NCBI GenBank assembly: GCA_020152595.1
Contig: JAIGNY010000711.1
Span: 594,001 to 658,000, forward strand
Reading direction: 5' to 3'
DNA: 64,000 nt
Source of the DNA: Chiridota heheva
Taxonomy: Eukaryota; Echinodermata; Holothuroidea; Apodida; Chiridotidae
Shown: positions 38,001 through 63,680 of the stretch, one piece after another
How the letters are laid out: every line of letters starts with the position of its first letter
Position numbering within the stretch: position 1 is the stretch's first letter
Made by a program: the position numbers and the translations under genes
Notes under the pieces: generated by a model
Databases searched by the model: none
The model's input: the letters and a program-made list of their open reading frames with translations, nothing else
Told to the model about the DNA's origin: nothing

Positions 38001-41000
38001 TTATCATCTAAGATAACCTTGTGATATCACACAATAAATCAATCTTATCATCTAAACCTTGTGATATCACTAAAATATTTTTATAATCCTTTCATTATAA
38101 CTGCAATGATGACTGGAAAGTGCAACAAAACTTTCATGACATTTTTGATATATAAATCATTTAAGACGACAAAAATAATACAAAAAATCCAGGACGTGTA
38201 CTCCTACATTATAATAATAATTACAATAGAAGATATTTGTATAACGTTGAGTCCTGTAATTATAATAAAGGAAATAGCAAAATGCCAACTTGTAAAACTT
38301 TATACAATTCTAATCTATGTAAAAATTGACTGAATAACAGTCTATAAAGAAATGACTTACTCGGAATGCTTGGGTTCAAAGGACACCACACTGTCCACAC
38401 CTTTGGACGTTTCCTTGACCTCAAGTAAGCCTCTGTCCTGAGCAAAAGCCAGGAATTTTCCAAGTTTCTTGTAACTTGATTTTTTTACATCTAGATTTTC
38501 ATTAGGCGGGCTGCCAAAAATAAAAAATACAATCCCTTACAACTATAAAAAGTACACACAAGAATGCAAATGCAAAGGTATCTGGACAGGTAGAGATTTC
38601 ATTACAAGGGGTTTGGGCTTAAAAACTGGCCACTAGCAACCCAAAGTTATTTAAACTTTTCTTTGAAAATGACTTCCAGTTGTAATTTTCTTTTGATTCC
38701 TTTTATTTTCAAACTGCACGATCTGCCATCATATATCACTATCTGTGGAAAACTCAATTGCTCATTGTGTGTGACCAGTGTGTGTGTGTGTGCCATGAAG
38801 TGGAATTGGTGAGTATTGGTTATATTGTGTAATAAAGAGTGAGGTTTCATTTTATTCATGGATAAGTGACAAGTGCGCTTTCACTTTTCTTTGAAAATGA
38901 CTTCCAGTTGTAATTTTCTTTTGATTCCTTTTATTTTCAAACTGCACGATCTGCCATCATATATCACTATCTGTGGAAAACTCAATTGCTCATTGTGTGT
39001 GACCAGTGTGTGTGTGTGTGCCATGAAGTGGAATTGGTGAGTATTGGTTATATTGTGTAATGAAGAGTGAGGTTTCATTTCATTCATGGATAAGTGACAA
39101 GTGCGCTTTCATTTCATTCATGGATATGTGACAAGTGCGCTTTCATTTCATTCATGGATAAGTGACAAGCGGTGTTTCATTTCATTCATGGATAAGTGAC
39201 AAGTGGGATTTCATTTCACTCATGGATAAGTGACAAGTGGGGTTTCATTTTATTCATGGATAAGTGACAAGTGGGGTTTCATTTTATTCATGGATAAGTG
39301 ACAAGTGGGGTTTCATTTCATTCATGGATAAGTGACAAGTGGGGTTTCATTTCACTCATGGATAAGTGACAAACAAGTGGGGTTTCATATTATTCATGGA
39401 TAAGTGACAAGTGGGGTTTTATTTCATTCATGGATAAGTGACAAGTGGGGTTTCATTTCATTCATGGATAAGTGACAAGTGGGATTTCATTTCACTCATG
39501 GATAAGTGACAAGTGGGGTTTCATTTTATTCATGGATAAGTGACAAGCGGTGTTTCATTTCATTCATGGATAAGTGACAAGTGGGGTTTCATTTCATTCA
39601 TGGATAAGTGACAAGTGGGATTTCATTTCACTCATGGATAAGTGACAAGTGGGGTTTCATTTTATTCATGGACAAGTGACAAGTGGGGTTTCATTTTATT
39701 CATGGATAAGTGACAAGTGGGGTTTCATTTCATTCATGGATAAGTGACAAGTGGGGTTTCATTTCACTCATGGATAAGTGACAAACAAGTGGGGTTTCAT
39801 TTTATTCATGGATAAGTGACAAGTGGGGTTTTATTTCATTCATGGATAAGTGACAAGTGGGGTTTCATTTCATTCATGGATAAGTGACAAGTGGGATTTC
39901 ATTTCACTCATGGATAAGTGACAAGTGGGGTTTCATTTTATTCATGGATAAGTGACAAGTGGGTTTCATTTTATTCATGGATAAGTGACAAGTGGGGTTT
40001 CATTTCATTCATGGATAAGTGACAACTGACTAATGAGGCAGCATTCTTACCAACACAATTATTTCAGCTTGTTAAATTTTTTAAGGGCAACTCCCGAGTC
40101 ATGTTTATATTCACCAGAAAAAACTTTAAATTCTGAACAGAATAGTGTTTAAATTATATGTCAGAAGCACCTGCAGATATGGCTATTGTATGTAAACGTT
40201 GTGATGTATGAAAAGAGAGGACAGCTCAAATTCTTCCTTGTAATTCTTAAATTTCTGTCCTAAATTTCAGTCACTAAAAATCATCAGACTGTTTTCTCCT
40301 GCTAACTACTGATTGTGGGTATGATGGAGATTCAATTCCCTCTCATCATATTTAATCTCTCCCATTAAAATAACCTTGGTAAAGGATTGAAAAAAAACTT
40401 ACCATAAGGAACTTAATTGGTTTTGCTGTGTTGATTTCAAAATTATGTATTTTTCAAGTCAATATCATGAAGTTTACTACCCTTAATATTAAATTCAAAA
40501 CAAGAATTCCATATCATAGGACAGTAAATCAGTGAATGCTCGCGTTCAGCATTCAGGTAGATAACAATTTGGCTAAGGAGCAGTATAATTCAGGCAAGAT
40601 TAAATTATTGTATGATTGTGAATGTTCATAAAGACAAATTAGACAAAACAGATATTATCAAAATTACAAATAAATTTAGTTTGGAAAATGACTCAAAAAT
40701 TTCAACATTAGGCAGATTCAGTGAAAACGACATTTAGCAGTTTTAGGGTCTATGTCAAATTGGTTTGCGCTTCATGCCTTCCAAAACATTATTACTATTA
40801 AACATTGTTATTATATTAAGTCACAATTATAATCAGTGTAATTTAAAAAAAATTATCTTAATCACTTCAGCTGATGTCCAAAGGTTAATATTTGTCTATG
40901 ACAATTGTCATTTGATGACAATATGTTATATGAAGCGATGGTCACTTTCCTTAAAAAAAAATTGCCTAATATTAATCAAGGATTTTTAAGTGCCAAAAGC

Positions 41001-44000
41001 CGAGAGATTGCATTTCCTGCCACGAATCTGAAACTCCTTACAGCGCCCCTGGTTTTTTACTCAAGTCACTAACTTGAACTCCACAATTATCTCAATTAAG
41101 CCACACTTTTTTCTTCTTTTTTATTGTGGCCTTGACTTGACTTGTGATCAAACAATTAGTGACTTGACTTGTGATCAAACAATTAGTGACTTGACTTGAC
41201 TTGACTTACCAATAAATGACTTGTATCTTGACTTCAAACATTGTTACAATTTTGGAAAATGTGACATTTATGAAGGAAAGCGGGAATTTGTCCCAACCAT
41301 TGTAGATAACAATCGTCATATAACGTATACGTTCATGCACTTCTGCATGAAAATATTGTTTACCCTCAGTGAGGAAAGAAATTACTCACCAGACTGATCT
41401 CATGTGCGTTCGATATAGATTTATTGTTGTCAACGGTAATTCCGATGGCTTGACTTGTGTTTTCAAGGCATGCAAAAGGCACTGGTAGAACAAGGCGTCC
41501 ATTTTGTCTGTTGAATATTCATAACATTAAAACAGTTTTAAGCTAACAATTAAGGAAACAAGGCTTAAAGAAGTGAAGCTAAAGCAAAAAAAAAATTGCT
41601 TCAATGAGAGAGATTACCATTGCCTTATCTTGTTTGGTGTTGGATTATCACCCAATTTATTTGAAGGATGTTTCCTGAAGGAGAGCAATGACATTTCAAG
41701 ATGGGGCTCTGGGTTAAGGGCCTGTATTTCCCTCTTATTTCCTCTTCATGTTTAATGGATACAATCTTGATAACTAAAGATAACTTGATACAGAAGATGC
41801 AGATGAATTTTATTTTCATATATATGATAGAGGACTATTAAAGAAACAATTTGGTGCAAAAATCATGCAATATCTTATTTCGTTTACCTATGAATTAGTA
41901 TTTCAAAGATTTGACCAGTGTGTTGAAAATAAGCTTGCAGTATAGAGTGTGATGTCATGATTACAGATCCAAGACAAACATTTATTATTTGTAGAAAATG
42001 AAATACATTTTTCTTTCATTTAGAGTGTAAATTAAGGTACAGGAGCAGATGGGCAAAGCACATGCTCTTGTAAAGAACATGTTTTATCCCATGCCAATAA
42101 TTAACAAAATCTATTTCCAATAATTTAGAAAGAGGCAAGTAGTTTTTAAAGAAGTACACAGACGTTGTCCTGCGTCTGCAATCATGACATCACATTGTAC
42201 ACTGCAAGGTAGCTTTCCAACACACCAGTGAAATCTCTGAAATGTACGAACTCCTAAATGCAATTAGATATAAACCTTGTTGTTTTTTACTTCAACAATT
42301 AACCTCTTTAATAGTCCTCTATCATAAATATGAAAATGAAATTCAGATAAATATTCTACTGAGAATGACCTTACTTTACACTTTAGTACTTTTCACTATT
42401 TTTCAAGTGAACATTCTCACCCACGGGGGAAACCTCCTCCTCCTCGTCTATTGCACCTGAGGCTGGTCCACCTGCCGCCCCTCCAGAATCCCTCCTCTCA
42501 TCTTCCTGGTTCAGATCAAGTGATGCCATCTGCGACAGATCAATTTTATCCTTCCTCTCCAACCCACTACCGTTCTCGTTTGAATCAGTCTCCATTTCTC
42601 CGTTTAGATAATTCTCATCCTCCACTCTGCTCTTCCCCTGATCATGACCTTTGGTTTCTAGATGGTCATCTTCATCTTCTTCAACTAGACCATCAGATTC
42701 TTGTGGAATAAAAGGTGGAACAGATTTATCTCCAATTTCCCTGAAAAAGGAATAAAACGAACATATCAAGCATCTTTTGAATTGTCTTTGTAATCTTAGA
42801 AGAAACTTACACTTAACGGTTCTCTCAGTCCTAAAGTCTTTTTCTTTTCCAAGTCATCAGAATTTTGGAACAGTACAGGTTTAAATTTTGATTCTCTGGT
42901 TGTTCAAAAATTAATTGAGTACTCATTAGAAATAGCTAAAAAACTAAATCATTCCGAGCCATTAGGCTCATTGGGCCAGTGCTTATCCCCGGTTTCCTTG
43001 GCACAAATGGATGAGAGTACACAACTCCCCCTGGCCAGTACATCGCAGATTGACTCTGAAGGAAATAAAGTGTCTTGCTCAAGGACACAATGCAGCGCTC
43101 ATGACGGTAATCGAGCATGGTACTTTTTGAATACGAGCATGACTCCTTAACCACCGAGCCACTGCACCTCACTCATTACAAATTATAAGAGTTGATGCTA
43201 AAATTCAAGTCACCTCAAAGGTTATCAATACCATTTCATGCATAAAACGTGTGTTCAAATATTCTTGAGACTCCAGAATAATAGGCTATCATTTTCCAGC
43301 TGCATGCCTCATTGACTGTTTCTAATTTAATGTAATTTATCATAGTTAAAATAAATCAGGATATAAGAAAAAATGCTCTTTTACAGTTATTCATATTTTC
43401 TGACCAACTGGTCCAAAATATTTTTGAACTTTCATTGATGGTGGTCGGTGATATGTTACATCATGATTAACTACACCGAAGTGATGCCCCGCAAAGTTTA
43501 GTCCTAAGGTATTGAGAATGCATGGGCTTGATCTGTGTGGAAGGTTGACTTCTTTGTAAAGGACGTTGTGTGAGCTGTGTCTTACAAAGTACCAAAGTAT
43601 TACTACGTTACATTTTGGATATAAAGATTAATGTTAAGTGCTTATTTTGGGGGCTTGATGACACACATTAATGCAATTGAGTTGAGGAGGGGGAAAATCT
43701 ACAAGGATGTAGAGGTCCACACCAATAGTTTTCAGAAAGAACAGGTTTTGTTTGACTCAACACTTGCATTTTGCATGCATCTTTGATCAAAAGGGGTGTT
43801 AAAAGTATTGAAAAGCTACAGTACTTCACATTAATACATGTTTATCTGCGTATTTAATGCATGGGGCAAGGGACTTTGGCCTCGAGTAGAATGACCTGAC
43901 TTTAGGAGGTTCATTCGCGAGTACAAAGTTATTCAAACCGTGCATTATATGCGCATATAATCATGATGCCAAAACATCAATCTCTTTATAAACTTTCCGT

Positions 44001-44213
44001 GGTAGATTGTTTAAAATGCCTAAAAAAAAACAATTAAAAAGAATGAAAAACAAGAAAAGTTTACATTTGGGTGTCTGTCTTTTGATCAGTAGTTTACACT
44101 GATGTGATTGAGGGCTTGAGCACTCTATAAATAAGAAATTGATTCAGCGACACTGTTTTAGGCCACCCCTGGAAAACTGTTTGCTGTTACCCATCAACCC
44201 AAAAAAATTTTTA

Positions 44214-44265
<52 letters not shown>

Positions 44266-44269
44266 GTGG

Positions 44270-44309
<40 letters not shown>

Positions 44310-46121
44310 TTTTTATGATGATGATGATGATGATGATAATAGCAATAATGATGATGATGATGATAATAATAATAATAATAATAGCAATAATAATAAAATA
44401 ACAATAATTATACTTTTTTAACTCATATAATCTAAATGCTTATTTTAGTGTTTAAAAGTTGTGCCACGTAAACAAACATTATTCTAAGGATGTCCTTTGC
44501 AGATTTTAACAACGACCAGGAGCAACAACAGCTTAAATGTTTTGAAGTACATAAAAGCATGGGAAAAGCAAAATTCACATCAAAATCATAAAACATTATC
44601 CATAGAACATTAATTCTAATAGTTAATTAAATTCTTAGTATGGTATTAGTGACACTTTAAAAGAACAAATTTTGCCCATTTATTCATGTACCAAATACTT
44701 TTAAGGGAAAAAAATGCATTTTCATAGAAATACACAAAAACTTGCAGTTATGACATTACACACTGGTGTATTAGACTTAGTGAACCAGTCCTTTTCAACT
44801 CACTAGTGGAATCTTTGAAATGTAATAGCTATTAGAAGGAATAAGATATCAGAATGGTTCTGCCATAAATTTGTCTGTCTGATTTCAATTTCTGCAAACA
44901 AAAGGAGAAGGTATTTTACCATAAATGGTCTCTGAAACAATGTATGATATCGACTCCCTTGCCCTTCATGGCAGCATCTCTCATGTCAGACGTGGACCAA
45001 TGAGTGCAACCCACTGCCATGGCGGCCTTGTTGCCCACTATGTTGATGGCACATGGCTGGTGTTTCTTAAGATTTGGAAGCCCTGACTGGGGTAATACTA
45101 CACCCGGTAACATCAGATCTGCAAAGGAAATGAAAAATATGGAAATTGGGAATTTTGTGAAGCAAAACAAAAAGAAATTTGTTTTAGACATTTACAACAA
45201 CAAAATGTTAAAAAATCAATAAAAAGAAGAGTAGTAAAATTAAGTGCTTGTCTACTAACTGTGGTGTAGCGATTATCATACCTGTCTACAGACCACGAGG
45301 CCCTGGGTTCAAGCCTGGGTTGGGTGGACACGCCAGTGCACCACAACTGGTTATCAAAGGCCGTGAACATTGACTTGGTTGTCAATGTTATGTCTGTCCG
45401 TACGTCGTACCTGTGTTCTCGTCCGATCGTATTAAGCGTTTCGTAATAGCATTGTTACTATCATATCCGATACGCAGACGACGACCCCTTCATTGTAATT
45501 GTGTGTTCACTCGTCGTCGTCGATTAAGTGCTTATTTTTGGGGGGCTTGATTACACACATTAATGCAATTAAGTTGAGGTGGGGGAAAATCTACAAGGAT
45601 GTAGAGGTCCACACCAATAGTTTTCAGAAAGACCAGGTTTTGTTTGACTCAACACTTGCATTTTGCATGCATCTTTGATCAAAAGGGGTGTTAAAAGTAT
45701 TGAAAAGCTACAGTACTTCACATTAATACATGTTTATCTGCGTATTTAATGCATGGGGCAAGGGACTTTGGCCTCGAGTAGAATGACCTGACTTTAGGAG
45801 GTTCATTCGCGAGTACAAAGTTATTCAAACCGTGCATTATATGCGCATATAATCATGATGCCAAAACATCAATCTCTTTATAAACTTTCCGTGGTAGATT
45901 GTTTAAAATGCCTAAAAAAACAATTAAAAAGAATGAAAAACAAGAAAAGTTTACATTTGGGTGTCTGTCTTTTGATCAGTAGTTTACACTGATGTGATTG
46001 AGGGCTTGAGCACTCTATAAATAAGAAATTGATTCAGCGACACTGTTTTAGGCCACCCCTGGAAAACTGTTTGCTGTTACCCATCAACCCAAAAAAATTT
46101 TTAGATGATGATGATGATGAT

Positions 46122-46156
<35 letters not shown>

Positions 46157-47925
46157 TGATGATGATGATAATAATAATAATAATAATAGCAATAATAATA
46201 AAATAACAATAATTATACTTTTTTAACTCATATAATCTAAATGCTTATTTTAGTGTTTAAAAGTTGTGCCACGTAAACAAACATTATTCTAAGGATGTCC
46301 TTTGCAGATTTTAACAACGACCAGGAGCAACAACAGCTTAAATGTTTTGAAGTACATAAAAGCATGGGAAAAGCAAAATTCACATCAAAATCATAAAACA
46401 TTATCCATAGAACATTAATTCTAATAGTTAATTAAATTCTTAGTATGGTATTAGTGACACTTTAAAAGAACAAATTTTGCCCATTTATTCATGTACCAAA
46501 TACTTTTAAGGGAAAAAAATGCATTTTCATAGAAATACACAAAAACTTGCAGTTATGACATTACACACTGGTGTATTAGACTTAGTGAACCAGTCCTTTT
46601 CAACTCACTGGTGGAATCTTTGAAATGTAATAGCTTTTAGATGGAATAAGATATCAGAATGGTTCTGCCATTAATTTGTCTGTCTGATTTCAATTTCTGC
46701 AAACAAAAGGAGAAGGTATTTTACCATAAATGGTCTCTGAAACAATGTATGATATCGACTCCCTTGCCCTTCATGGCAGCATCTCTCATGTCAGACGTGG
46801 ACCAATGAGTGCAACCCACTGCCATGGCGGCCTTGTTGCCCACTATGTTGATGGCACATGGCTGGTGTTTCTTAAGATTTGGAAGCCCTGACTGGGGTAA
46901 TACTACACCCGGTAACATCAGATCTGCAAAGGAAATGAAAAATATGGAAATTGGGAATTTTGTGAAGCAAAACAAAAAGAAATTTGTTTTAGACATTTAC
47001 AACAACAAAATGTTAAAAAATCAATAAAAAGAAGAGTAGTAAAATTAAGTGCTTGTCTACTAACTGTGGTGTAGCGATTATCATACCTGTCTACAGACCA
47101 CGAGGCCCTGGGTTCAAGCCTGGGTTGGGTGGACACGCCAGTGCACCACAACTGGTTATCAAAGGCCGTGAACATTGACTTGGTTGTCAATGTTATGTCT
47201 GTCCGTACGTCGTACCTGTGTTCTCGTCCGATCGTATTAAGCGTTTCGTAATAGCATTGTTACTATCATATCCGATACGCAGACGACGACCCCTTCATTG
47301 TAATTGTGTGTTCACTCGTCGTCGTCGATTAAGTGCTTATTTTTGGGGGCTTGATTACACACATTAATGCAATTAAGTTGAGGTGGGGGAAAATCTACAA
47401 GGATGTAGAGGTCCACACCAATAGTTTTCAGAAAGAACAGGTTTTGTTTGACTCAACACTTGCATTTTGCATGCATCTTTGATCAAAAGGGGTGTTAAAA
47501 GTATTGAAAAGCTACAGTACTTCACATTAATACATGTTTATCTGCGTATTTAATGCATGGGGCAAGGGACTTTGGCCTCGAGTAGAATGACCTGACTTTA
47601 GGAGGTTCATTCGCGAGTACAAAGTTATTCAAACCGTGCATTATATGCGCATATAATCATGATGCCAAAACATCAATCTCTTTATAAACTTTCCATGGTA
47701 GATTGTTTAAAATGCCTAAAAAAACAATTAAAAAGAATGAAAAACAAGAAAAGTTTACATTTGGGTGTCTGTCTTTTGATCAGTAGTTTACACTGATGTG
47801 ATTGAGGGCTTGAGCACTCTATAAATAAGAAATTGATTCAGCGACACTGTTTTAGGCCACCCCTGGAAAACTGTTTGCTGTTACCCATCAACCCAAAAAA
47901 ATTTTTAGATGATGATGATGATGAT

Positions 47926-47960
<35 letters not shown>

Positions 47961-50900
47961 TGATGATGATGATAATAATAATAATAATAATAGCAATAAT
48001 AATAAAATAACAATAATTATACTTTTTTAACTCATATAATCTAAATGCTTATTTTAGTGTTTAAAAGTTGTGCCACGTAAACAAACATTATTCTAAGGAT
48101 GTCCTTTGCAGATTTTAACAACGACCAGGAGCAACAACAGCTTAAATGTTTTGAAGTACATAAAAGCATGGGAAAAGCAAAATTCACATCAAAATCATAA
48201 AACATTATCCATAGAACATTAATTCTAATAGTTAATTAAATTCTTAGTATGGTATTAGTGACACTTTAAAAGAACAAATTTTGCCCATTTATTCATGTAC
48301 CAAATACTTTTAAGGGAAAAAAATGCATTTTCATAGAAATACACAAAAACTTGCAGTTATGACATTACACACTGGTGTATTAGACTTAGTGAACCAGTCC
48401 TTTTCAACTCACTGGTGGAATCTTTGAAATGTAATAGCTTTTAGATGGAATAAGATATCAGAATGGTTCTGCCATTAATTTGTCTGTCTGATTTCAATTT
48501 CTGCAAACAAAAGGAGAAGGTATTTTACCATAAATGGTCTCTGAAACAATGTATGACATCGACTCCCTTGCCCTTCATGGCAGCATCTCTCATGTCAGAC
48601 GTGGACCAATGAGTGCAACCCACTGCCATGGCGGCCTTGTTGCCCACTATGTTGATGGCACATGGCTGGTGTTTCTTAAGATTTGGAAGCCCTGACTGGG
48701 GTAATACTACACCCGGTAACATCAGATCTGCAAAGGAAATGAAAAATATGGAAATTGGGAATTTTGTGAAGCAAAACAAAAAAGAAATTTGTTTTAGACA
48801 TTTACAACAACAAAATGTTAAAAAATCAATAAAAAGAAGAGTAGTAAAATTAAGTGCTTGTCTACTAACTGTGGTGTAGCGATTATCATACCTGTCTACA
48901 GACCACGAGGCCCTGGGTTCAAGCCTGGGTTGGGTGGACACGCCAGTGCACCACAACTGGTTATCAAAGGCCGTGAACATTGACTTGGTTGTCAATGTTA
49001 TGTCTGTCCGTACGTCGTACCTGTGTTCTCGTCCGATCGTATTAAGCGTTTCGTAATAGCATTGTTACTATCATATCCGATACGCAGACGACGACCCCTT
49101 CATTGTAATTGTGTGTTCACTCGTCGTCGTCGATTAAGTGCTTATTTTTGGGGGCTTGATTACACACATTAATGCAATTAAGTTGAGGTGGGGGAAAATC
49201 TACAAGGATGTAGAGGTCCACACCAATAGTTTTCAGAAAGACCAGGTTTTGTTTGACTCAACACTTGCATTTTGCATGCATCTTTGATCAAAAGGGGTGT
49301 TGAAAGTATTGAAAAGCTACAGTACTTCACATTAATACATATGATAACGAATACAGCTTCAAAATTTTAGCTTGAAGGTACTTAGTTGATGTAGTTTTAA
49401 AATAATTGCAATACCATCTTGAATGTGACTAACTCATATCAGTCATGAAAACACTTCCTGTTCATACATGGGCACTTGACCAGGACAATTTTTTTTCATA
49501 TTTAAGCTACCATATTCGACGAAATAAGCACCCAGGGCACTTACAATAATAGAATTTTGCCAATTTTCACTGCCTAGGTTTCTTCCTTATAAGCGCCCAT
49601 GCTCTGAGTTGTGTACAGTACAGTTAGAACTGCGCTAGTACTGTAAAACTCCCTGCACTGTACATATAAGTGGGAACTGGTTCTAACCCCACAACAAGCA
49701 CCACAAAACCATCGTGAGTGTCACACCTAAAATAAGCAAAGAATGTGACAAAACAATGTTTTAAGTCATCAAATTACTCATTAGACTGACAAAATTATAA
49801 GAAATAAAGTTTCATGGGCCGAACATGTTTTAAGCAGGGGCAGAATTCAAATATCAGCAAGTAAATTTGCTGTGTTTTGCAAGCATTTTCAAATGTTTTC
49901 GAAACTTCTCACCACACTGTACAAATTTAAAGTGTGCCATCAGTGCAGAAAATTTTAATTCCAAAAAATTGCCAAGATCTTTGCAAAGCATCTTTAGAAC
50001 TTTTTTTGTTTGTTTATTTTACAACTTTAGTTCCTTTTTTGTGCAATTTACTAGACTCATTAGGTAATCTTTGCATATGTTTGTAGTGAACATAACAGTT
50101 CAAGCTATTTTGTCTGTGTATTTCTGGGTCATGTTTTACAGCTTGTAAAACGGATCTTAGTCAAACGCTGATTTATGCCTGGGCCAGGCCTACAGTAGTA
50201 ATGTAGCATTGTTTATCGGGAACTACTGCACTTTCATATGCATCACAATTAGCTCCGAATTTGGCGAATTAAAGGGAAAGATATCCCCATTAATGTGTTA
50301 TTACTGCAAATTTCTACTCCCAGCATAAACAGGGATTAAGCCTAGCGTATGAAAAAAAACATGGAACATATTAAAAGATCACTTATTGATGTTGGGGTAT
50401 GTTATGAAGTCAAACTTGAAAATGTTGGGTAAGTGCTTATTAAGCATGGGCATTGACATATCAGTCATGAAGACACTTCCTGTTCATACATGGATGCTTA
50501 CTATGCGGAGTAAGGGACTTTGCAGCTGCTAAGAAATTGTTCTCTATGGATATTATTTCCGAGTGCAAATTTTAGGCTGAAGAAGTCAACATAGTACATT
50601 TTACACTGCAAAACAATTATCAAGAAACATAAAGATGATCAGAAAAGGAACAAAAAGATTAATTAATTTGATTAATTTGCAGATAATATCATATAATCTA
50701 TTGAGAGATTTTATTTCTCCTTACAATAAAATTGCTGCACTCTGATACAGTACATTGCAAATAAAGAATACCCCATTAACAAAATGTGTACCAAAGTAGA
50801 TACTCTCTACAATTAAAAAAACAAATATTCTTGGACAAAAGTTGCTGTGGTCATTTTTCTAATTGAATGTGGTGTGATGTTTGGTACCATTTTTGCCTTC

Positions 50901-53900
50901 TTTAACAACTTTTATAATATTTGTATGACAGTACAAGAAAATTAAGTTAACCTGCTCCATTCTGTAGTTTTTCAATGACCGGCGGCCATGTTGAAAAGGA
51001 TGGTAGAAGGTCTGGGTGATGCCACAAAGTATAAACTACGGAGGAAAAGAAAATCAGTCTGAATATAGAATTGCTGATACTTGGAGTGACATGAACTAAA
51101 CAAAAATAGAGTGCAAATTTCCTTGAAAATGTTGACAAACTATACCAAATTTTTCAATAATTTTCCTTCAATTTTCCTACTTTTTTTTTACAATTTTATG
51201 TTAATCATTTCACCCAACCATGGCCATGAAGAAAGCATGCATACAAGAAGGTAAAATCCTTTAAAAGGGAAAATGTTACCCAACCTGCCCCCCACTTTCT
51301 GCACCTCTGAGCCACCATATTGTATCAACTCTTAAATTGTAATATCCCTTTTAGACATATGTAAATGACAAACTACCTGTAGGGTAAAGCTTCTGTTCTA
51401 TTTCAAAGAAGAGGGGCTGTGACTCATTAGTGTACACTTCACACAATTGGTTTTGGTGAGTTGTTAACTTCATCACATCTACATTCCCTTTATTTGGGAA
51501 CATTTCACTCAGAGTTTCAGCAGTGAGGATGGGGAACTGCCTGGCAAGATCAGCCCTCAGACGCCGCCTGTAACAAAATACAATGAATAAAGATTGATTA
51601 TCACAAAAACGTGCTTTCAGCTCTAACAATAAAGTACAACAAGTGTGAAGGAATGGCCCAACATTGTACAAAAACAATTCACACAAGAAACATATATACA
51701 ACAGTAGATTTCATACAGTACCTCTTCCACCCTGAACAATAACACCTGCTACTTAATTCTTGGAGTTCTTTATTTTAAAAACCTCCAAATACAATCTACC
51801 CCCAAATCCTTGAGGAATTAAAGTTTCATCCCACAAAATCTCTATATCACTTTTGACCTATCTCACTTAAGTGCATTACAAAAAAATTGAGCCTTTCAAG
51901 ATTATATCTTAGATTTTAGTTATATTCTTCCAAAGCATTTATTTTTGGATTTCACTTCAAGTAAGATTCACATTGTAGTATTTCCTTCCAATTGTTCTGA
52001 GTTGTTTTCTTGTCACAAATCACCAATTGTTTTTATTTTACCTTAGGCCAGAAAATGATTGTTTTGACTTCTTTTTAGGGCATTATTTCATTGTTCAAGA
52101 ATCCCAAACAAATGGTTCAACTAAGTCCCCATGAAGAATCTCGTTTCCTTAATTTTCTAAAAATTATGAAACTATCTTTTGATGGAAAAGGTTGATTTTT
52201 TATTTTTTCAAGCCATTGTGGTACATGTTTCAAAAACAAAGGATTTACATCAGAAAATAGAGAAGTAGACCATAGCCAGAAGGGTGGCAATTGCCTCCCC
52301 CCCCCCCCCTTTCCCCCAAATATTTGAATCCGTTGTTTCAGATTTGTACTTTCGATTTAGATTGTACTTGTCAGTTCAGATTTGTACTTGTTGGCTCATC
52401 TTGTCAATTTGACTTATCTTCCCCCCCTCCCCTCACCCTTCTCCCCAATATGGAAATTTGCACTAGATCTTATCGTCCAACCAGCTTTGTAGGCCCAAGT
52501 TCAGAAGTGATCAGGTTATTTGAAATAGTGTTCATATGCGCTACTTGTGACTGTGTAAGTTTAAACCTAGTATAAATCATATTGAGCAATGAAATTTCAC
52601 AAGGAATCAGATAAAAGTCTCTAAACATTAGTTGTTCTGCTCCTTAAATTTTAAACAGTCTGACCCGACCTGATACATAACCAGGTCGGGTCAGATTTTC
52701 ACTCTTTATTTTCTTTATTCTGAAAACCTTAGTTGTTGTGGAAATTGGTGCTGAGTATCATATTAGCAATGAATTAAGTCCTTATTGTGTGGTTATCTTA
52801 ATTAAGATAAAGTGGTCTCACTATTTGCTACAGTAAGTTTGTGATTATGATTTGCTGGAACAAATTTTTAAGGAGAAAGACAAGTCATGAATAGGAAAGA
52901 GTCGATTTTTAAACTATGCAATGACATTAAAGAGTCACAAAAAGAGTCAAACATCGGTCGTCAGTCATGGAACACCCATACGTGCAGAGCATGATTAGTT
53001 GATTGCTTCCTGTCAAGAAAGCCCGGCGTGAAATCTGAGTGTAGTGCCTCTTAGCTACGTCATATAACCAATATAAATGGTACATCTGAGAGCAAGATAT
53101 TGCTTTTTGGACAAAGCTCTGCAGATTATTGAAGTGCTAGCAAGACTTTTACAACCTAACTTTTATGTTCTCAAGTCCTAACTCAGCTATAAAGCACATG
53201 ATATTTCATTAAAACTAGCAAGATATTGCTTTCTGGACAAAGCCCTGCAAATTTTTGAAGCCCTTAGCGGGATTTTTAAAGTCCTAAGCCGAAGAATTTT
53301 GCAGCCCTAGCAGGATTTTTGAAGCCCTATCGAGATTTCTGAAGAAATCAAAATAAAAAAGGGTCACAAAAGCATGGAAAGCAAAGAAAAATGTTACCTG
53401 CACATTGTGCTGGTAGTATTCCACCAATTTTTGTAACACAATTTTTCTTGCAAAAAAGGGGTGAAGCCCCGGAATCGAAAAAGAGTTCTTAATAGTGATG
53501 CCTCTGAATGGCTTTAAATCAAAACACAGACGTGGCAAAAATTGAATTCCAGAAAACAAGAAAATTTTAAATTCTGACTTTAAAATCAACTATGATATAT
53601 TCATTTGGTTTACCATTTCTAAGCAGGCAGAGGAGAAATTTCCCCTGAAAATGGAGAAAGGTCAAGCACAATATCATTGGACATATTACTGTATTTAAAT
53701 AAACAAATTAGAAAAGGGTCACAAAAGCGTAGAAAGCAAAGAAAAATATTACCTGCACATTGTGCTGGTAGTTTTCTGGCAATTTTTGTAACACAATTTG
53801 TCTTGCAAAAATCTCTGGCACACCCTACCAGTCAGCCAGTGTAGAAGTCATCTTATTTGGGGAAGTACTAGTTCCCCTCCCCCACTACTGTTGCAGAAAT

Positions 53901-55485
53901 AATATTATCAAGGTCCCTCGGACCCCCCACGTTTTGGACGTTGACATCAAAATTCATGGTTCATTTTTGGAGGCTGGTTATCCATCCAATATTTCACATC
54001 ACTGCCCGATTAAGCATAGTGACCTGAAAAACATGTTATCAGGATCAAGCTGAGTCGGAAGGACATGGCTGTTATTTTTGAGTCCGGCTTGATTCAGATA
54101 TCACATCTCTGATTTAAACAGTGCATCTGACAATTCATATCTCTGCCCGACTAAGATCGGTGCCCAAGAATCATGTTGTCAGAATCATGCAGAGTAAGGA
54201 GGGCATATCTCAATTTCTAGCCAAGTTGGGCATAATTCCGATAAATCACTGATATAAACAGTACATCTGAAATTTTACATCTCTGCCTGACTAAGATTTG
54301 TGCCTAAGTATGCTAATTTTATGGATACTATGTATGACCCAGATATCTAGGCGAGTCTGGCATGATTCCGATAAATCACAGATTTAAACAGTACATCCAA
54401 TCGTGACATTTCACAATTTTGCCTGACTAAGTTTGGTTCCTGGCCGCCCCCCTCCCCTTCCCCAGCCTCGTACGGCCATGTCAAGACTCACTATGCATCA
54501 GTTATGTTGGCATAATAGGAATGCATGTCTGTCAGTAGTAACCAGGCCTGTAGCCAGCATAGGGCATGGGGGAGGGGGTGTCCCCCTTGTGAAGGTATAT
54601 GCACCCTTATGTAAAATCAAAATATATATATATATATAACACAATGTGCCCCCTCGTTGGGTGCTTGTGCCCCACCCCTCTCCTTTCGAAAATGTCTGGC
54701 AACGGACCTGTTCCTGGTCTTATCCCCTCCAACCTTGGTAGGCCTAAGATCAGTGGCATAGCCAGAGGAGGGGAGGGGTGATCGTCCACCTCCAATATTT
54801 AATCCGTTGGCTGAGATTTGTACATGTCGGCACATCTTCTCGGTTCACTTTCATTACTTGCCTGCACGATCAGTGGTGTAGCCAGAAGGAGGTGGAAATC
54901 GCCTCCCCCCCCCCTACCAAAATGGAAATCCTAGCTATGCCACTGAACTACAAATTTGCATATCAACAACTGGTAGGTAGGTACATTGAGTATTCTACAT
55001 CCGTTTCTCAACAGCTAAGGTTATACTGAGATTCCAATGGCTGTTCAATAAACCAAATGTGAAGCAATGGTGAATCAAATTCAAAAAGCTGTCACATGGT
55101 CCATTTTCAATCAATTTTTATGGAAAATCTGATTAGATTTTCAGTATTTTTGTTGAATATTTTTTAAGTAATGAGATGTATATGAACAATCTATACAACA
55201 CCCTGTGCAAATACAATACTGTACATGTACAAATCATAATTGATGGAATCTGGTAAGAATTCTGTTTCGAACAGAAGAGAGAGGAGGACAATATAAAAAA
55301 AACTCTATTTCTCCTACCAAGAAAAACATATTAAATAAAGATACAGTATATTCAAATGGTGAATCTAATCTAGTCCATTCATATTTTGCACATAGACAAG
55401 TAGACCACCACATTGGAAAGTTCACTCACCTATCTGAACCCCTCATAGCAGTGTTACCTCTGACATGAAATGGTTTTCTGAACAT
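4958..55485 (-). CDS. EIF2D: EIF2D gene, 13 coding exons (plus two extra copies of exon 4)
   Basis: Eukaryotic translation initiation factor 2D is a cytosolic protein that delivers tRNA to the ribosomal P site independently of eIF2 and helps recycle 40S subunits; it is related to MCTS1 plus DENR. The assignment rests on exon-by-exon resemblance to vertebrate eIF2D, for example DLMLPGVVLPQSGLP in the PUA domain, MDALFYQCLLHALKTQV, LDVKKSSYKKLGKFL, LVVLDPILHDIL and VRVQGNQIHYISKLLL. Every intron has GT-AG or GC-AG borders and all phases fit: 56+191+84+199+320+118+150+183+90+93+136+174+71 nt, one base short of 622 codons. The missing base lies in exon 12. Approximate residues: MCT1-like 1-110, PUA 110-177, acidic linker 177-283, winged helix 283-400, SWIB/MDM2 430-515, SUI1 525-621. 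Introns range from 341 bp to 11.2 kb. Expressed protein would need the exon 12 indel to be a sequence error or polymorphism. Confidence 0.95.
5029..5890. other. EIF2D intron 12, 3' part, no recognised feature
   Basis: Intronic AT-rich DNA between exon 13 and a tandem repeat near 5.9 kb. Short ORFs on both strands have no recognisable similarity. Confidence 0.4.
5895..6330. repeat. Imperfect tandem repeat with gccatcttggata core
   Basis: Three or four diverged copies of a ~130-150 bp unit containing aagatatgacatgt and ggtggccatcttggatatct (about 5905-5970, 5970-6060, 6068-6130, 6205-6270). No coding potential recognised. Confidence 0.6.
6370..6670 (-). pseudogene. LINE ORF2 C-terminal fragment
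   Basis: On the minus strand the peptide HKWKWVGYTLCKDQSNIAHH and ALELNPQGKLGEEG resembles the conserved tail of many non-LTR retrotransposon ORF2 proteins (RRWRWIGHTLRK, NPQGKRRRGRP). It is short and frame-disrupted, a dead 5'-truncated copy within intron 12. Confidence 0.6.
6771..7640. other. EIF2D intron 12, no recognised feature
   Basis: No gene or defined repeat seen between the LINE fragment and the minisatellite-bearing repeat. Confidence 0.4.
7641..10165. repeat. Dispersed repeat with internal 24-bp minisatellite, copy 1
   Basis: The flank at 7660-7715 (caaattgacacccatatcat, then ccaattat) is shared with 25003. The core arrays at about 7716-9142 and 9263-9455 consist of a 24-bp unit cccacatggcatcccacccc plus atgt, heavily varied. 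The 3' flank aggctccataagaagtctca occurs at 9141 and again at 9459, and the far tail at 9837-10165 (repeated actttaacattttctgagga) matches 25690-25985. The 24-bp unit equals 8 codons, so many spurious frames (MSHMASHP and variants) are open on both strands. Confidence 0.85.
10474..10647 (-). CDS. EIF2D: EIF2D exon 12 (SUI1 domain), one base short
   Basis: The exon is 174 nt, with acceptor tttccaag and donor CTTG|gtcagt. The first part reads VTVISNLEPIG and the rest, one frame over, reads IDPKVLSQKLQKGVAAS and VEVRVQGNQIHYISKLLL. The human counterpart is continuous (VTVVRNLEAYGLDP, VQIQGNQVHHLGWLLLEEY). The break falls in GGATTGACCC at about 10615-10620, where GLDP is expected, so one base is missing. 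Read as written, translation stops about 30 codons later and loses the SUI1 domain. This may be a consensus error, an allele or a real lesion. Confidence 0.9.
10648..11613. other. EIF2D intron 11, 3' part, no recognised feature
   Basis: Starts directly upstream of exon 12. The open frame that overlaps exon 12 here is accidental. No other feature recognised. Confidence 0.4.
11614..16690 (-). mobile_element. I-superfamily LINE, near full length but decayed
   Basis: Read on the minus strand, from high to low coordinate. ORF1 (about 16480-15700) has three CCHC-type knuckles (PLCCHKCQRYGHGKNSC, ARCGNCGALDHDSISC, PLCTSC). An AP endonuclease follows (about 15070-14430; ILLCDFNAHNPLWGS, DLCDSDHYPL). 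Next is reverse transcriptase (about 14380-13090; SEGPDNIPYQFLKHLS, VTPVPKPRKD, QEEGEPQGSILS), then an RNase H segment (about 12460-12100; FFWIPSHVGI). The element ends with a 3'UTR and a tail of (CAAA)n at 11614-11632. RNase H after RT and gag-like ORF1 fit the I superfamily. Many frameshifts and stops make it dead. It is much more GC-rich than its surroundings and lies in intron 11 in sense with EIF2D. Confidence 0.88.
16691..17500. other. EIF2D intron 11, no recognised feature
   Basis: AT-rich intronic DNA between two LINE copies; short ORFs without similarity. Confidence 0.4.
17501..17672 (-). mobile_element. I-type LINE, 3'-end fragment
   Basis: About 170 bp nearly identical to the 3' end at 34602 and similar to that at 11614 (gaggtcttaacggcaccacg, then aagccagaaagctgtgatcg), with the same (CAAA)n tail on the minus strand. 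Severely 5'-truncated, as expected from incomplete target-primed reverse transcription. Confidence 0.85.
17889..18465. mobile_element. Palindromic hairpin MITE, copy 2
   Basis: The ends are taaaggaatattcccatgg and cgtgggaatattccttta, inverted copies of each other; internal features of the family (gatgtcatagag and tgatgtcatactga in opposite halves) are present. No coding capacity. Confidence 0.75.
18466..18956. other. EIF2D intron 11, no recognised feature
   Basis: No gene or defined repeat seen between a hairpin MITE and the next palindromic element. Confidence 0.4.
18957..19190. mobile_element. Small palindromic MITE-like element
   Basis: The ends of the 126-bp core (18957-19082) are gtgtttatatgtgtttttaa and cgcatataaacac with inner tgcacggtgcaaag versus ctttgaaccgtgca, all inverted. 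About 100 bp further (to near 19180) is also shared with the element inside each 1.8-kb array unit (for example 43830-44070), so both derive from one family. Confidence 0.65.
19240..21735 (+). mobile_element. LINE ORF2 remnant (endonuclease C-terminus, RT, C-terminal region)
   Basis: Plus-strand reading in several frames. The endonuclease end comes first (LLDFCGVSSLLETGAIFPHK at about 19295, SGGHRLMRTRIRLGLRGK). A linker follows (VESRWQTFGEVYNRAAK at 19673), then reverse transcriptase (EVREALVELGSGRAAGRNGV, ESWRWGLMAGMPEKG, MPGKVFGRVLIDRIK near 20240-20540), the LGDLDFA box near 20900 and IRYLGATVS near 21100, and a C-terminal RRKVGRPGTIWRG near 21510. It is 5'-truncated inside the endonuclease and carries many indels and stops. 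The family resembles RTE-like or related non-LTR elements; the exact clade is not certain. It is GC-rich and antisense to EIF2D. Confidence 0.85.
21851..21986 (-). CDS. EIF2D: EIF2D exon 11
   Basis: The exon is 136 nt and encodes FLGCMTHGYQMDSG through VVKGKLRPINLKVEKKMGNK, equivalent to human LQPAYQVTLPG and IVKKGRICPIDITLAQRASNKK. The acceptor is acattag and the donor AAAGTG|gtgagt. It ends at a codon boundary just before the SUI1 fold. A LINE remnant ends about 115 bp beyond its donor. Confidence 0.95.
22135..22330. mobile_element. Hairpin MITE, single-arm fragment
   Basis: One arm of the hairpin family only: gatagaagactattgaagaa, then agtgtgttaaaaagtgacct, equivalent to the left arms at 511 and 23121. 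The other arm is absent. Confidence 0.6.
22525..22880 (-). mobile_element. tRNA-derived SINE with 21-bp target duplication
   Basis: On the minus strand the head at 22859 reads gaggtgcattggctcagtga, with an A-box-like tggctcagtgatta and a B-box-like ccgggtttgatttcc, followed by a conserved core (gtgtccttgagcaaggcac). A perfect 21-bp direct repeat flanks it (22525-22545 and 22860-22880), showing retrotransposition. A second copy is at 42950-43172. Confidence 0.88.
22922..23014 (-). CDS. EIF2D: EIF2D exon 10 (SWIB/MDM2 domain)
   Basis: The exon is 93 nt and encodes LVVLDPILHDILIPRTEGS and ITHLQWEQVFK, like human LVRLDPILCDCILEKNEQ and KLPWDSLLTRCL. The acceptor is ttctgttgcag and the donor AAAAG|gtaatt. 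It has no ATG and was found by homology and phase. Confidence 0.93.
23121..23921. mobile_element. Palindromic hairpin MITE, copy 3, with nested SINE
   Basis: The left arm starts tcaaaggaatattcctgtca and the right arm ends ttaatagtcctctgtcattt then aatcctttaa. It is the same family as 509-1006, but the left arm is split at 23222 by a SINE; the arm resumes near 23605 with gaaagattttaccagtgtgc. Confidence 0.75.
23223..23590 (+). mobile_element. tRNA-derived SINE nested in a MITE
   Basis: The head contains aggtagctcattcggctgag (A-box-like) and ggtctcaggttcaagtcc (B-box-like) at normal tRNA spacing, followed by a tRNA-unrelated body (cccaatggtgggagtttacc). The surrounding hairpin element is interrupted at this point, proving insertion. 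The 3' end is approximate. Confidence 0.7.
23922..24666. other. EIF2D intron 9, no recognised feature
   Basis: AT-rich intronic DNA running up to the GC donor of exon 9; nothing recognised. Confidence 0.4.
24667..24756 (-). CDS. EIF2D: EIF2D exon 9 (SWIB/MDM2 domain), GC donor
   Basis: The exon is 90 nt and encodes KGAWMKVEDIKKVVTDYVKS and NELVEASSR, equivalent to human KKGSFLEGSEVRTIVINYAKKNDLV. The acceptor is tttgtacag. The only donor that keeps the frame into exon 10 is AGAAG|gcaagt, a GC-AG intron with the strong consensus typical of that class. The downstream join gives AG|T = Ser, then LVVLDPIL. Confidence 0.92.
24860..25986. repeat. Dispersed repeat with internal 24-bp minisatellite, copy 2
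   Basis: Shares both flanks with the copy at 7641-10165 but has a shorter core array (about 25050-25440). The tail repeats actaacattttctgaggaat and ends at 25986, where a large DNA transposon has inserted. Open frames (MSHMASHP-type) are artefacts of a 24-bp unit. Confidence 0.85.
25987..31596 (+). mobile_element. 5.6-kb DNA transposon with long TIRs, decayed
   Basis: The ends are inverted: TAGTAGAGTCAA at 25987 and its inverse at 31585-31596. Similarity extends about 165 bp inwards (cccaaaaaaattgcaagaaa, tttaaatatgacgtcat). A 3-bp repeat gtg flanks it (25984-25986 and 31597-31599). It sits inside the tail of a dispersed repeat; the paralogous uninterrupted tail at 10166 reads ctgtggacgg where this locus has ctgtg, the element, then gtggatgg, which supports these limits. 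The interior carries one broken protein gene on the plus strand, and subterminal TGACGTCA clusters lie at both ends. It is antisense in EIF2D intron 8. Confidence 0.8.
26690..30979 (+). pseudogene. Transposon-encoded multidomain protein with CXC motif, frame-disrupted
   Basis: The remains suggest a protein of about 1,400 residues in several frames. First comes an N-terminal Cys/His region (GTCVHKSC, CLYCGNK, HAADCLYHHSCDVHF; to 27708, in-frame TAA). It is followed by FAADNVDHNIVILDGKGTFH near 27925, PPIVTFDQPPFWKA near 28385, and LLGSFHTFMNLLGAIEI near 28485. Next are VVFDGY and GRPSTKDNTHQ near 29935, then DADVDIVKAAI, VEDAD, LLLYHGT and AHAFSGCDTTS (30145-30415), which together look like the acidic positions of a PIN/FEN1-like nuclease. 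The end is DWGWSVQGGQLIP and a CXC motif (IHCNCSTGCRTLKCSC, GLECTQACGPC; 30820-30920). In-frame stops lie at 27709 and 28446, and frames change near 28050, 29010, 29190 and 30230. Similar uncharacterised proteins are, to my knowledge, widespread in invertebrate genomes. Domain functions are inference. Confidence 0.75.
31597..33712. other. EIF2D intron 8, 5' part, with a G-rich tract
   Basis: No gene recognised. A G-run-rich tract at about 31683-31720 (several runs of 4 or more G) could form a G-quadruplex on the plus strand, opposite to the transcript. The rest is AT-rich. Confidence 0.45.
33713..33895 (-). CDS. EIF2D: EIF2D exon 8
   Basis: The exon is 183 nt and encodes LLDFVIPDYTNPFAEETENS through VTTQVLPVLKDYGY, equivalent to human ITSFVIPEPSPTS through YCVPASMTLLFQESGH. 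The acceptor is atttctag and the donor TACAA|gtgagc. The exon leads into the SWIB/MDM2-like domain. Confidence 0.93.
34410..38073. repeat. 40/44-bp satellite, about 3 kb net, in EIF2D intron 7
   Basis: Tandem copies of a unit with core accttgtgatatcacacaat followed by cttatcatctaa, in two length variants (44 bp with an extra gata, 40 bp without) that alternate irregularly. Many units contain the palindrome tgatatca. The array is broken at 34602-35316 by a truncated LINE. It begins about 290 bp beyond the donor of exon 7. No ORF. Confidence 0.95.
34602..35316 (-). mobile_element. 5'-truncated I-type LINE inserted in the satellite
   Basis: Minus-strand copy with the same (CAAA)n tail and 3'UTR as 17501, extending to part of the RNase H region (inverse of gctgggtatccagaagaaa shared with 12269). 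It abuts satellite units on both sides, so it landed after the array formed. Frames are interrupted. Confidence 0.88.
38361..38510 (-). CDS. EIF2D: EIF2D exon 7
   Basis: The exon is 150 nt and encodes PPNENLDVKKSSYKKLGKFL, then EVKETSKGVDSVVSFEPKHS, matching human LDIKKSSYKKLSKFL and VKELSKGVESIVAVDWKH. The acceptor is tttttggcag and the donor CCGA|gtaagt. It lies between a 34-bp minisatellite (5' side) and a 3.7-kb satellite (3' side), both starting within about 300 bp of the exon. Confidence 0.95.
38655..39110. repeat. 228-bp tandem duplication
   Basis: Two nearly identical 228-bp copies begin at 38655 and 38883 (acttttctttgaaaatgact), each with a short (TG)n run and ending in gataagtgacaagtgcgctt, where they grade into the 34-bp minisatellite. 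Hence two near-identical minus-strand open frames, which are not genes. Confidence 0.9.
39070..40024. repeat. 34-bp minisatellite with higher-order structure
   Basis: About 28 copies of a 34-bp unit, ggggtttcatttcattcatg plus gataagtgacaagt. Variant units (ggatttcatttcactcatgg, agtgacaaacaagtgg, ggtttcattttattcatgg) recur in the same order about 420 bp apart (for example gacaaacaagtgg at 39368 and 39780), so the array grew by block duplication. Confidence 0.93.
40025..41389. other. EIF2D intron 6, mostly unremarkable
   Basis: AT-rich intron. The only structure seen is a short ttgacttgtgatcaaacaat direct repeat at about 41130-41215 with runs of (cttga)n. Confidence 0.45.
41390..41507 (-). CDS. 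EIF2D: EIF2D exon 6
   Basis: The exon is 118 nt and encodes KMDALFYQCLLHALKTQVK and PSELPLTTINLYRTHM, equivalent to human QMDELLQQCFLHALKCRVK and LPLLTSTFLGSHM. The acceptor is attcaacag and the donor GTCTG|gtgagt. It begins the winged-helix-like middle domain. It is too short and lacks a usable ATG, so it does not stand out as an ORF; it was found by phase and homology. Confidence 0.92.
41801..42354. mobile_element. Palindromic hairpin MITE, copy 4
   Basis: The left half ttttcatatatatgatagag, then gaggactattaaagaaac, is inverted in the right half ctctttaatagtcctctatc, then aaatatgaaaatgaaattca. Inner inverted pairs include agtgtgttgaaaataagctt versus agctttccaacacac. It ends 67 bp before exon 5's donor side, in intron 5. 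Confidence 0.75.
42421..42740 (-). CDS. EIF2D: EIF2D exon 5 (acidic linker)
   Basis: The exon is 320 nt, with acceptor ctttttcag and donor GTGG|gtgaga. It starts EIGDKSVPPFIPQESDG, matching the human segment after DHLW, and continues as a low-complexity linker rich in Asp, Glu, Ser and Gly (VEEDEDDHLE, AIDEEEEVSPV). Such linkers are poorly conserved in eIF2D. The phase is 2 in (TG|G = Trp) and 1 out (G|AC = Asp). Confidence 0.93.
42950..43172 (-). mobile_element. tRNA-derived SINE, second copy
   Basis: Same family and orientation as 22546-22859: head (inverse of catgactccttaaccaccga), core tgctcaaggacacaatgc and tail cattaggctcattgggccag. Shorter internally. Target duplications were not resolved. 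Confidence 0.82.
43173..43633. other. EIF2D intron 4, no recognised feature
   Basis: Single-copy-looking DNA immediately before the 1.8-kb tandem array; nothing recognised. Confidence 0.4.
44213..44400. repeat. GAT/AAT microsatellite, unit 1
   Basis: A (gat)n tract followed by (aat)n, with a ggtggt interruption and aatttttat break; about 85 bp longer than its equivalents at 46105-46200 and 47909-48003, which carry (gacgat)n instead. The polyaspartate and polyserine frames over it are artefacts. Confidence 0.95.
44920..45118 (-). CDS. EIF2D: EIF2D exon 4, copy C (3'-most)
   Basis: This is the third intact 199-nt copy of the PUA exon, identical in sequence to copy B across the exon. It lies in the array unit nearest exon 5 (2.2 kb away). 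That unit is the most diverged of the three in its flanks (longer GAT tract, several substitutions near 43.64 kb), so it may be the ancestral one; that ordering is an inference. Confidence 0.92.
45250..45522 (+). mobile_element. tRNA-derived SINE at array junction 1
   Basis: A 273-bp element with A-box-like tggtgtagcgattatca and B-box-like ctgggttcaagcctg near its left end and a (gtc)n-type end. It is flanked by the exact 11-bp repeat attaagtgctt (45239-45249 and 45523-45533). Identical elements are at 47055-47327 and 48860-49132. Confidence 0.85.
46725..46923 (-). CDS. EIF2D: EIF2D exon 4, copy B (middle)
   Basis: This is the second intact 199-nt copy of the PUA exon, 1804 bp downstream (in transcription) of copy A. 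Reading frame, acceptor and donor are identical; residues VDIIH replace VDVIH. It lies in the middle unit of the tandem array. Splicing it after copy A would give TG|A, a stop codon, at the junction. Confidence 0.92.
47055..47327 (+). mobile_element. tRNA-derived SINE at array junction 2
   Basis: Same 273-bp SINE as at 45250, with the same 11-bp attaagtgctt on both sides (47044-47054, 47328-47338). It was carried along by expansion of the array rather than inserted separately. Confidence 0.85.
48529..48727 (-). CDS. EIF2D: EIF2D exon 4, copy A (5'-most), PUA domain
   Basis: The exon is 199 nt, with acceptor cctttgcag and donor TTTATG|gtaaaa. It encodes DLMLPGVVLPQSGLPNLKK through CFRDHLW, the PUA RNA-binding core of eIF2D. 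This copy differs from the other two by a single base in the exon, giving VDVIH instead of VDIIH. Splice sites are intact. Because 199 is not a multiple of three, it can be joined to exon 5 but not to another copy of exon 4. Confidence 0.93.
48860..49132 (+). mobile_element. tRNA-derived SINE at array junction 3
   Basis: Third copy, flanked by attaagtgctt at 48849-48859 and 49133-49143. To its right lies only the 205-bp start of a fourth unit. Confidence 0.85.
49339..50951. other. EIF2D intron 3, no recognised feature
   Basis: Single-copy-looking AT-rich intron from the end of the tandem array to the donor of exon 3. A partial repeat cttcctgttcatacatgg occurs at 49454 and 50477. Confidence 0.4.
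50952..51035 (-). CDS. EIF2D: EIF2D exon 3
   Basis: The exon is 84 nt and encodes VYTLWHHPDLLPSFSTWPP and VIEKLQNGA, very close to human VYTLWSYPDLLPTFTTWP. The acceptor is cctccgtag and the donor GCAG|gttaac. It ends in phase 1 (G|), which pairs with the AT at the start of exon 4 to give Asp. The ATG-initiated extension upstream in the same frame is intronic. Confidence 0.95.
51377..51567 (-). CDS. EIF2D: EIF2D exon 2 (MCT1-like N-terminal domain)
   Basis: The exon is 191 nt, with acceptor tgttacag and donor ACAG|gtagtt. It encodes RRLRADLARQFPILTAETL, then LFFEIEQKLYPT, the counterpart of human RRKLRADVTTAFPTL and LFELEKNLYPT. The phase joins exon 1 (AG|G) and exon 3 (G|TT). It completes most of the N-terminal domain that precedes the PUA fold. 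Confidence 0.95.
52270..55000. repeat. EIF2D intron 1: diverged repeats
   Basis: Contents seen: C-rich tract segments following catagccagaaggg (52272, 54755, 54885). A direct repeat of ~110 bp occurs at about 53350 and 53707 (agggtcacaaaagc, tgcacattgtgctggtag). A ~125-bp tandem unit, three to four diverged copies, spans about 53990-54430 (tctctgcccgactaag, attccgataaatcac). A mini-element at 54888-54947 has inverted ends cagtggtgtagccag and ctagctatgccactg. No gene is present. Confidence 0.6.
55430..55485 (-). CDS. EIF2D: EIF2D exon 1 (start codon)
   Basis: The exon encodes MFRKPFHVRGNTAMRGSD plus two bases of the next codon, and matches the vertebrate N-terminus MFAKAFRVKSNTAIKGSDR. The donor is AG|gtgagt. 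The ATG was chosen by this homology; the upstream AAAGAAA context is purine-rich as expected for initiation. This is the start of the MCT1-like N-terminal domain. I could not define a 5'UTR exon border or a promoter. Confidence 0.9.

Positions 55486-62837: not shown

Positions 62838-63680
<843 letters not shown>

Follow-up and report, generated by a model that had tools for sequence, protein, structure and literature searches.

Duplicated exons whose joint inclusion breaks the reading frame, with nonsense-mediated decay (NMD) filtering the resulting messages, are already in print, as far as the available parts of the reports go (PMC5740500, PMC5224494, PMC7969005, PMC6071210). For dystrophin duplications of exon 2 (PMC3982197) and of exons 44 and 45 (PMC1931584), the transcript with the duplication, which is out of frame, is given as the predominant product of untreated patient cells; no dystrophin was detected in such cells when exon 44 or 45 was duplicated, and the authors ascribed the low wild-type-like products in untreated samples to a polymerase chain reaction (PCR) artefact (PMC1931584). 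An intragenic tandem duplication in the Drosophila forked allele of strain 1570 likewise probably disrupts the frame, according to the accessible part of its description (PMC13322080). Here we analyze the EIF2D gene of the holothurian Chiridota heheva in a window of 64,000 nucleotides (the whole stretch of DNA analyzed; contig JAIGNY010000711.1, positions 594,001 to 658,000 of the forward strand), in which exon 4 is present in three copies. The reading that we place first, at about an even chance, is that a 1.8-kb segment comprising exon 4 and its flanking intron sequence was recently duplicated in tandem, in a frame-breaking manner, within the sole EIF2D copy that was found, and that most of the resulting messages are unproductive.

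The copies of exon 4 lie on the minus strand at window positions 48529..48727 (copy C, the first in transcription order), 46725..46923 (copy B) and 44920..45118 (copy A), as placed by DNA match, junctions and frame test. Each is 199 nt long, and the junctions TTTGCAG/ATCTGA ... TTTATG/GTAAAA are identical in all three. Exon 3 (50952..51035, minus strand) contributes a single base, G, to the following codon (G/AT, Asp111), exon 4 leaves TG and exon 5 starts with G (TG/G, Trp), so that exon 4 is entered in phase 1 and left in phase 2. We translated each of the eight inclusion patterns, running exon 5 (42437..42740, minus strand; the start at 42740 is set by the acceptor) to 42437, a low end chosen arbitrarily. 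The three single-copy patterns remained open as far as exon 5 was tested; the three two-copy patterns and the three-copy pattern met a TGA after residue 176, which arises where the final TG of one exon 4 copy meets the initial A of the next; and the zero-copy pattern was frameshifted, with a TAG at codon 129. Joint inclusion and full skipping are both incompatible with the frame across the eight patterns. A preliminary description of this locus had claimed three intact copies with the same splice sites and open frames, a 199-nt exon with these phases, a TGA wherever copies are joined, a frameshift when all are skipped, and a requirement of exactly one copy for full-length eIF2D, and each of these claims holds. 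It had also offered a VDVIH/VDIIH difference as a tag for transcripts. Indeed, copies A and B are identical (both VDIIH) and copy C is off by 1/199 bases (isoleucine to valine, giving VDVIH), but the variant therefore sits in 48529-48727, the last copy by coordinate and the first to be transcribed, and not in copy A as had been proposed.

The junction stop lies elsewhere than was first supposed, when truncation inside the PUA domain was expected. Residue 171 is the last of the Pfam PUA match (profile positions 10-73 of 74), and the joint-inclusion product runs to residue 176. The stop would thus lie just behind the PUA match and keep a predicted Pre-PUA and PUA module with the layout of MCTS1; residues 16-175 of the product align to MCTS1 residues 19-173 of 181 (E 2.1e-10). 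Residue 111, whose codon is split between exons 3 and 4, corresponds to D109 of the fly protein and D111 of the human one, both at the face of the PUA domain that binds tRNA (PMC7495428). Because the junction TGA falls at a domain border, giving the joint product its MCTS1-like layout, one could read the locus as a gene with two products, single inclusion giving eIF2D and joint inclusion that escapes NMD giving a free 176-residue Pre-PUA and PUA protein. If so, the ratio of the products would be set by exon copy number and could be tilted by the palindromes discussed below, but we hold this to be highly improbable.

The gene runs on the minus strand from ~55.5 kb to ~10.5 kb of the window. The predicted N-terminal 176 residues align to residues 1-176 of PDB 5oa3 (E 8.8e-60), which we take to be human eIF2D, and exon 4 by itself aligns to residues 112-176 of the same entry (E 5.2e-16). 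The Pre-PUA Pfam match of EIF2D scores 92.2-93.6 bits; the PUA match, at 20.9-22.2 bits, is under the Pfam cut-off of 24.8 and is backed by the alignment to 5oa3 residues 1-176. Farther along, a WH_eIF2D (eIF2D winged helix) match is found near 38.4 kb (47.8 bits) and a SUI1 match near 10.5 kb, where the PDB sequences matched are eIF2D in 3/3. Together, these predicted Pre-PUA, PUA, winged-helix and SUI1 domains in one gene identify it as EIF2D. Exons 1-5 were placed by splice sites, and the exon map covers these exons, with ~38.3-10.7 kb outside it. Exon 1 (55430..55485, minus strand; beginning MFRKPFHVRGNTAMRGSDR) aligns from eIF2D residue 1 and gives a single weak hit in the protein search of the genome (E 0.0027), and exon 2 (51377..51567, minus strand) and exon 3, both supported by splice sites, have one genome match each. 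Across the assembly (1.1 Gb, 3744 contigs), exon 4 DNA has three matches, all in the EIF2D array, and the first 176 residues, used as a protein query (E up to 10), gave six, the three exon 4 copies and exons 1, 2 and 3 once each. A second EIF2D copy or second haplotype elsewhere in the assembly was thus sought with both queries and not found. The 176-residue search also returned no MCTS1-like place at E up to 10, so distant relatives may escape it.

The exon 4 copies are adjacent and head to tail, each with its flanking intron, and constitute a tandem exon duplication. There are three full units, each with one exon 4: U1 (43634..45523, 1890 bp, with a longer GAT/AAT microsatellite), U2 (45524..47328, 1805 bp) and U3 (47329..49133, 1805 bp). 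They are followed by the first 207 bp only of a fourth unit (49134..49340), which matches four genome places, all inside the array, and stops abruptly at 49340. Every full unit also carries the same insertion of a 273-bp repeat resembling a short interspersed nuclear element (SINE), at 45250..45522 (plus strand) in U1, with 11-bp target-site duplications (ATTAAGTGCTT) at 45239-45249 and 45523-45533, at 47055-47327 in U2 and at 48860-49132 in U3. This repeat is dispersed in the genome (3662 first-look candidates, of which the best 40 were scored). Since its position is the same in U1, U2 and U3, its insertion most simply predates the amplification. The triplication first described therefore stands as far as the full units go, and the partial fourth unit and the SINE-like repeats had gone unmentioned. 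For the 207 bp beyond the three units we favour the loss of most of a fourth unit, and the copy number of the array is perhaps still varying.

Two candidate causes of the array were considered and rejected. The 207-bp segment found at both array ends is confined to the array, with its four genome matches, which speaks against recombination between dispersed repeats; dispersed-repeat matches beside the array end at 43281 on the left and begin at 49494 on the right, and do not reach the borders at 43634 and 49340. The SINE-like repeat was likewise discarded as the cause of both ends, as it sits within the unit at the unit border and has its own target-site duplication. The dispersed repeats that flank the array, at 49494-50100 and 42926-43281, are 66-93% alike (2659 and 4485 first-look candidates, the best 40 of each being scored).

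Without the microsatellite, substitutions number 8/1707 between U1 and U2, 9/1707 between U1 and U3 and 3/1708 between U2 and U3, the last pair also differing by two gap columns, one within a run of T/G and the other within a run of A. With so few substitutions between units the array appears young, and most simply U1 would have split off first and U2 and U3 later, in at least two amplification steps. The same scarcity of differences admits an assembly artefact, in which two haplotypes or a mis-traversed loop were laid head to tail and the true number of exon 4 copies is one or two. The differences could be allelic or consensus errors, and if those between U2 and U3 are consensus errors, the two kinds of copy that are left might still represent haplotypes. 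Three distinguishable copies are, however, more than the two haplotypes of a diploid single-copy locus, and together with the 207-bp partial unit and its abrupt end at 49340 they make a simple false duplication less likely. Furthermore, the window contains 0 N, and the U1/U2 differences are clustered, with 5/7 neighbouring gaps of at most 40 columns, a figure matched by 13/20000 shuffles (the statistic was picked after the sites were known); this clustering fits exchange between real copies. From the sequence we favour a real, recent and stepwise duplication over a simple assembly error, and consider the artefact unlikely.

Under our preferred reading of a recent frame-breaking duplication, the spliceosome would mostly join two or three copies of exon 4. 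Joint inclusion would be the default expectation, because the junctions are identical and the introns between the copies, of 1605 and 1606 nt, are ordinary. A stop codon well upstream of later exon junctions triggers NMD, which we assume to operate in C. heheva; the joined messages, stopping at the TGA just behind the PUA domain, should then be cleared, and full-length eIF2D would come from the minority of messages with one copy. The allele should accordingly be a weak or near-null one with respect to eIF2D. Such an allele would be tolerable and could persist, since animals mutant for eIF2D alone are viable both in Drosophila, in which DENR acts redundantly (PMC7495428), and in C. elegans, in which they are also fertile (PMC8519953). 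Several points weigh against this reading. The exon 4 donor (ATG/GTAAAA) fits 6/9 positions of the consensus (C/A)AG/GTRAGT by a hand count, which may make single inclusion more frequent than assumed here. The three copies are all intact, though little decay is expected at such an age. The dystrophin cases overstate joint inclusion, because they were found through disease. Finally, among human mutually exclusive clusters of lengths not divisible by three, reads joining the exons occur in 83/377, in the portion of the study available (PMC5740500).

The preliminary description had instead proposed forced mutually exclusive splicing. Its one-copy arithmetic holds, but exclusion itself is not borne out. 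Frame incompatibility filters messages and chooses no exon: the spliceosome does not read frame, which acts on messages afterwards, and exclusion would therefore need a device. No such device was found among short introns, a mix of U2- and U12-type sites, and docking elements of at least 14 nt. Steric hindrance needs a donor within ~50 nt of the next branch point; the introns between the copies, at 1605 and 1606 nt, are not short, and blocking by a short intron does not apply, but no search aimed at a distant branch point near the donor, as in OGDH, was made. The same GT-AG junctions recur in 3/3 copies and are unlike the U12 consensus. A docking site and selector arrangement was sought with exact seeds of 11 and without gaps: in 42700-51100 there are 12 inverted pairs of at least 14 nt, both arms lie inside the units in 12/12, and no site outside the array was found at this length, although shorter or interrupted elements may exist. 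We also considered, and set aside, a complementary element that lies 612 nt downstream of the exon 4 acceptor and might occlude it (14/15 paired). Its 12 exact pairs are rare (14/1787 unit 18-mers, a count that includes the pair itself), but its duplex of -19.3 kcal/mol is ordinary next to 60 random 30-mers from the unit, with a median of -17.4 and at least 10/60 at -23.2 or below.

Working mutually exclusive exons, with some device that picks one copy and with frame incompatibility and NMD clearing the errors, as in OGDH and U2AF1, would nonetheless agree with the intact exons, the preserved junctions and the incompatible frame. In the accessible portions of the literature, 377/629 human clusters are of the frame-breaking type (PMC5740500), and frame and NMD are named as enforcer (PMC6071210, PMC7969005, PMC5224494). 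Set against this are the results on introns, U12 sites and inverted pairs (0/12 with an arm outside the units), and the identity of copies A and B, between which a choice would leave the protein unchanged. We regard such a device as improbable, and the dosage or splice-control switch suggested earlier gained no support beyond the sequence.

One structure inside the units might act without any external site. A perfect 18-nt palindrome, ATTATATGCGCATATAAT, lies downstream of each exon 4 copy, at 47640..47657, 45836-45853 and 43944-43961, so that copies B and A stand between palindromes and copy C outside them. Pairing between units could then loop out B and A and leave C alone, single inclusion thus arising from the duplication itself, with a duplex of -21.9 kcal/mol vs -1.0 for the lone hairpin, and such a palindrome occurs in 31/2000 simulated units (first-order Markov). 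With 20 or 40 flanking bases, however, local folds reach -8.2 and -18.8 kcal/mol with the hairpin kept, so long-range pairing faces competition from local folding. We judge 18 pairs, mostly A-U, over 1.8-3.7 kb to be short for exon looping, and chance could account for the palindrome, since another of 18 nt stands at 52793 in the same window. We therefore think self-looping of this kind very unlikely.

The EIF2D region is rich in tandem duplication. Inside the gene span there are, besides the exon 4 array, a 44-bp tandem array of ~59 copies (35313-37807), a 228-bp pair that is 99% alike (38655-39111) and a 34-bp tandem array of 28 copies (39066-40025). The span also holds an Exo_endo_phos_2 (endonuclease-reverse-transcriptase) domain match at ~14.5-14.8 kb on the minus strand and a run of long open frames at 27.7-31.0 kb on the plus strand, which together look like mobile-element remains. 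The window also has a 24-bp unit (ATGGCATCCCACCCTATGTCCCAC-like) arrayed at 7701-9457 and again at 25043-25438, more than 15 kb apart, and a (TA)n run of ~253 units at 63115-63620.

What is unusual in the EIF2D array is its youth, its copy number and a stop at a domain border. A literature search for eIF2D with exon duplication found no paper, and one for eIF2D with splicing terms gave none naming eIF2D among the matches listed. If the copies are real, an exon array has been caught very young, with A and B identical, the frame incompatible and no second gene copy found, and it would allow the handling of duplicated exons by the spliceosome before regulation evolves to be studied free of the bias of human disease.

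The comparisons that follow hold for the parts of the cited reports that are available. As in the duplications of dystrophin exons 2, 44 and 45, the extra element is a whole exon of frame-breaking length, and one copy restores the message (PMC3982197, PMC1931584). The dystrophin alleles, however, have two copies, are human disease alleles and were examined at the transcript level, whereas EIF2D has three copies and is known from DNA alone, with a stop that forms exactly at the copy-copy junction. Human mutually exclusive clusters of lengths not divisible by three resemble the array in that joint inclusion breaks the frame (377/629; PMC5740500), but they were judged by RNA sequencing (RNA-Seq) junctions, and the EIF2D copies, seen in DNA, are identical or one base apart. 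The 2.7-kb duplication in the forked allele of strain 1570 is likewise an intragenic tandem duplication with one complete exon, taken from a long-read assembly, although that allele has a visible mutant phenotype (PMC13322080). OGDH exons 4a/4b and U2AF1 exons Ab/3 are likewise duplicated exons, with NMD named as a filter of their joint inclusion. Elements of the kind that shape the choice in those genes were not identified in EIF2D, where no search aimed at branch points was made; in OGDH the choice is shaped by distant branch points, and in U2AF1 by repression of one exon (PMC7969005, PMC5224494).

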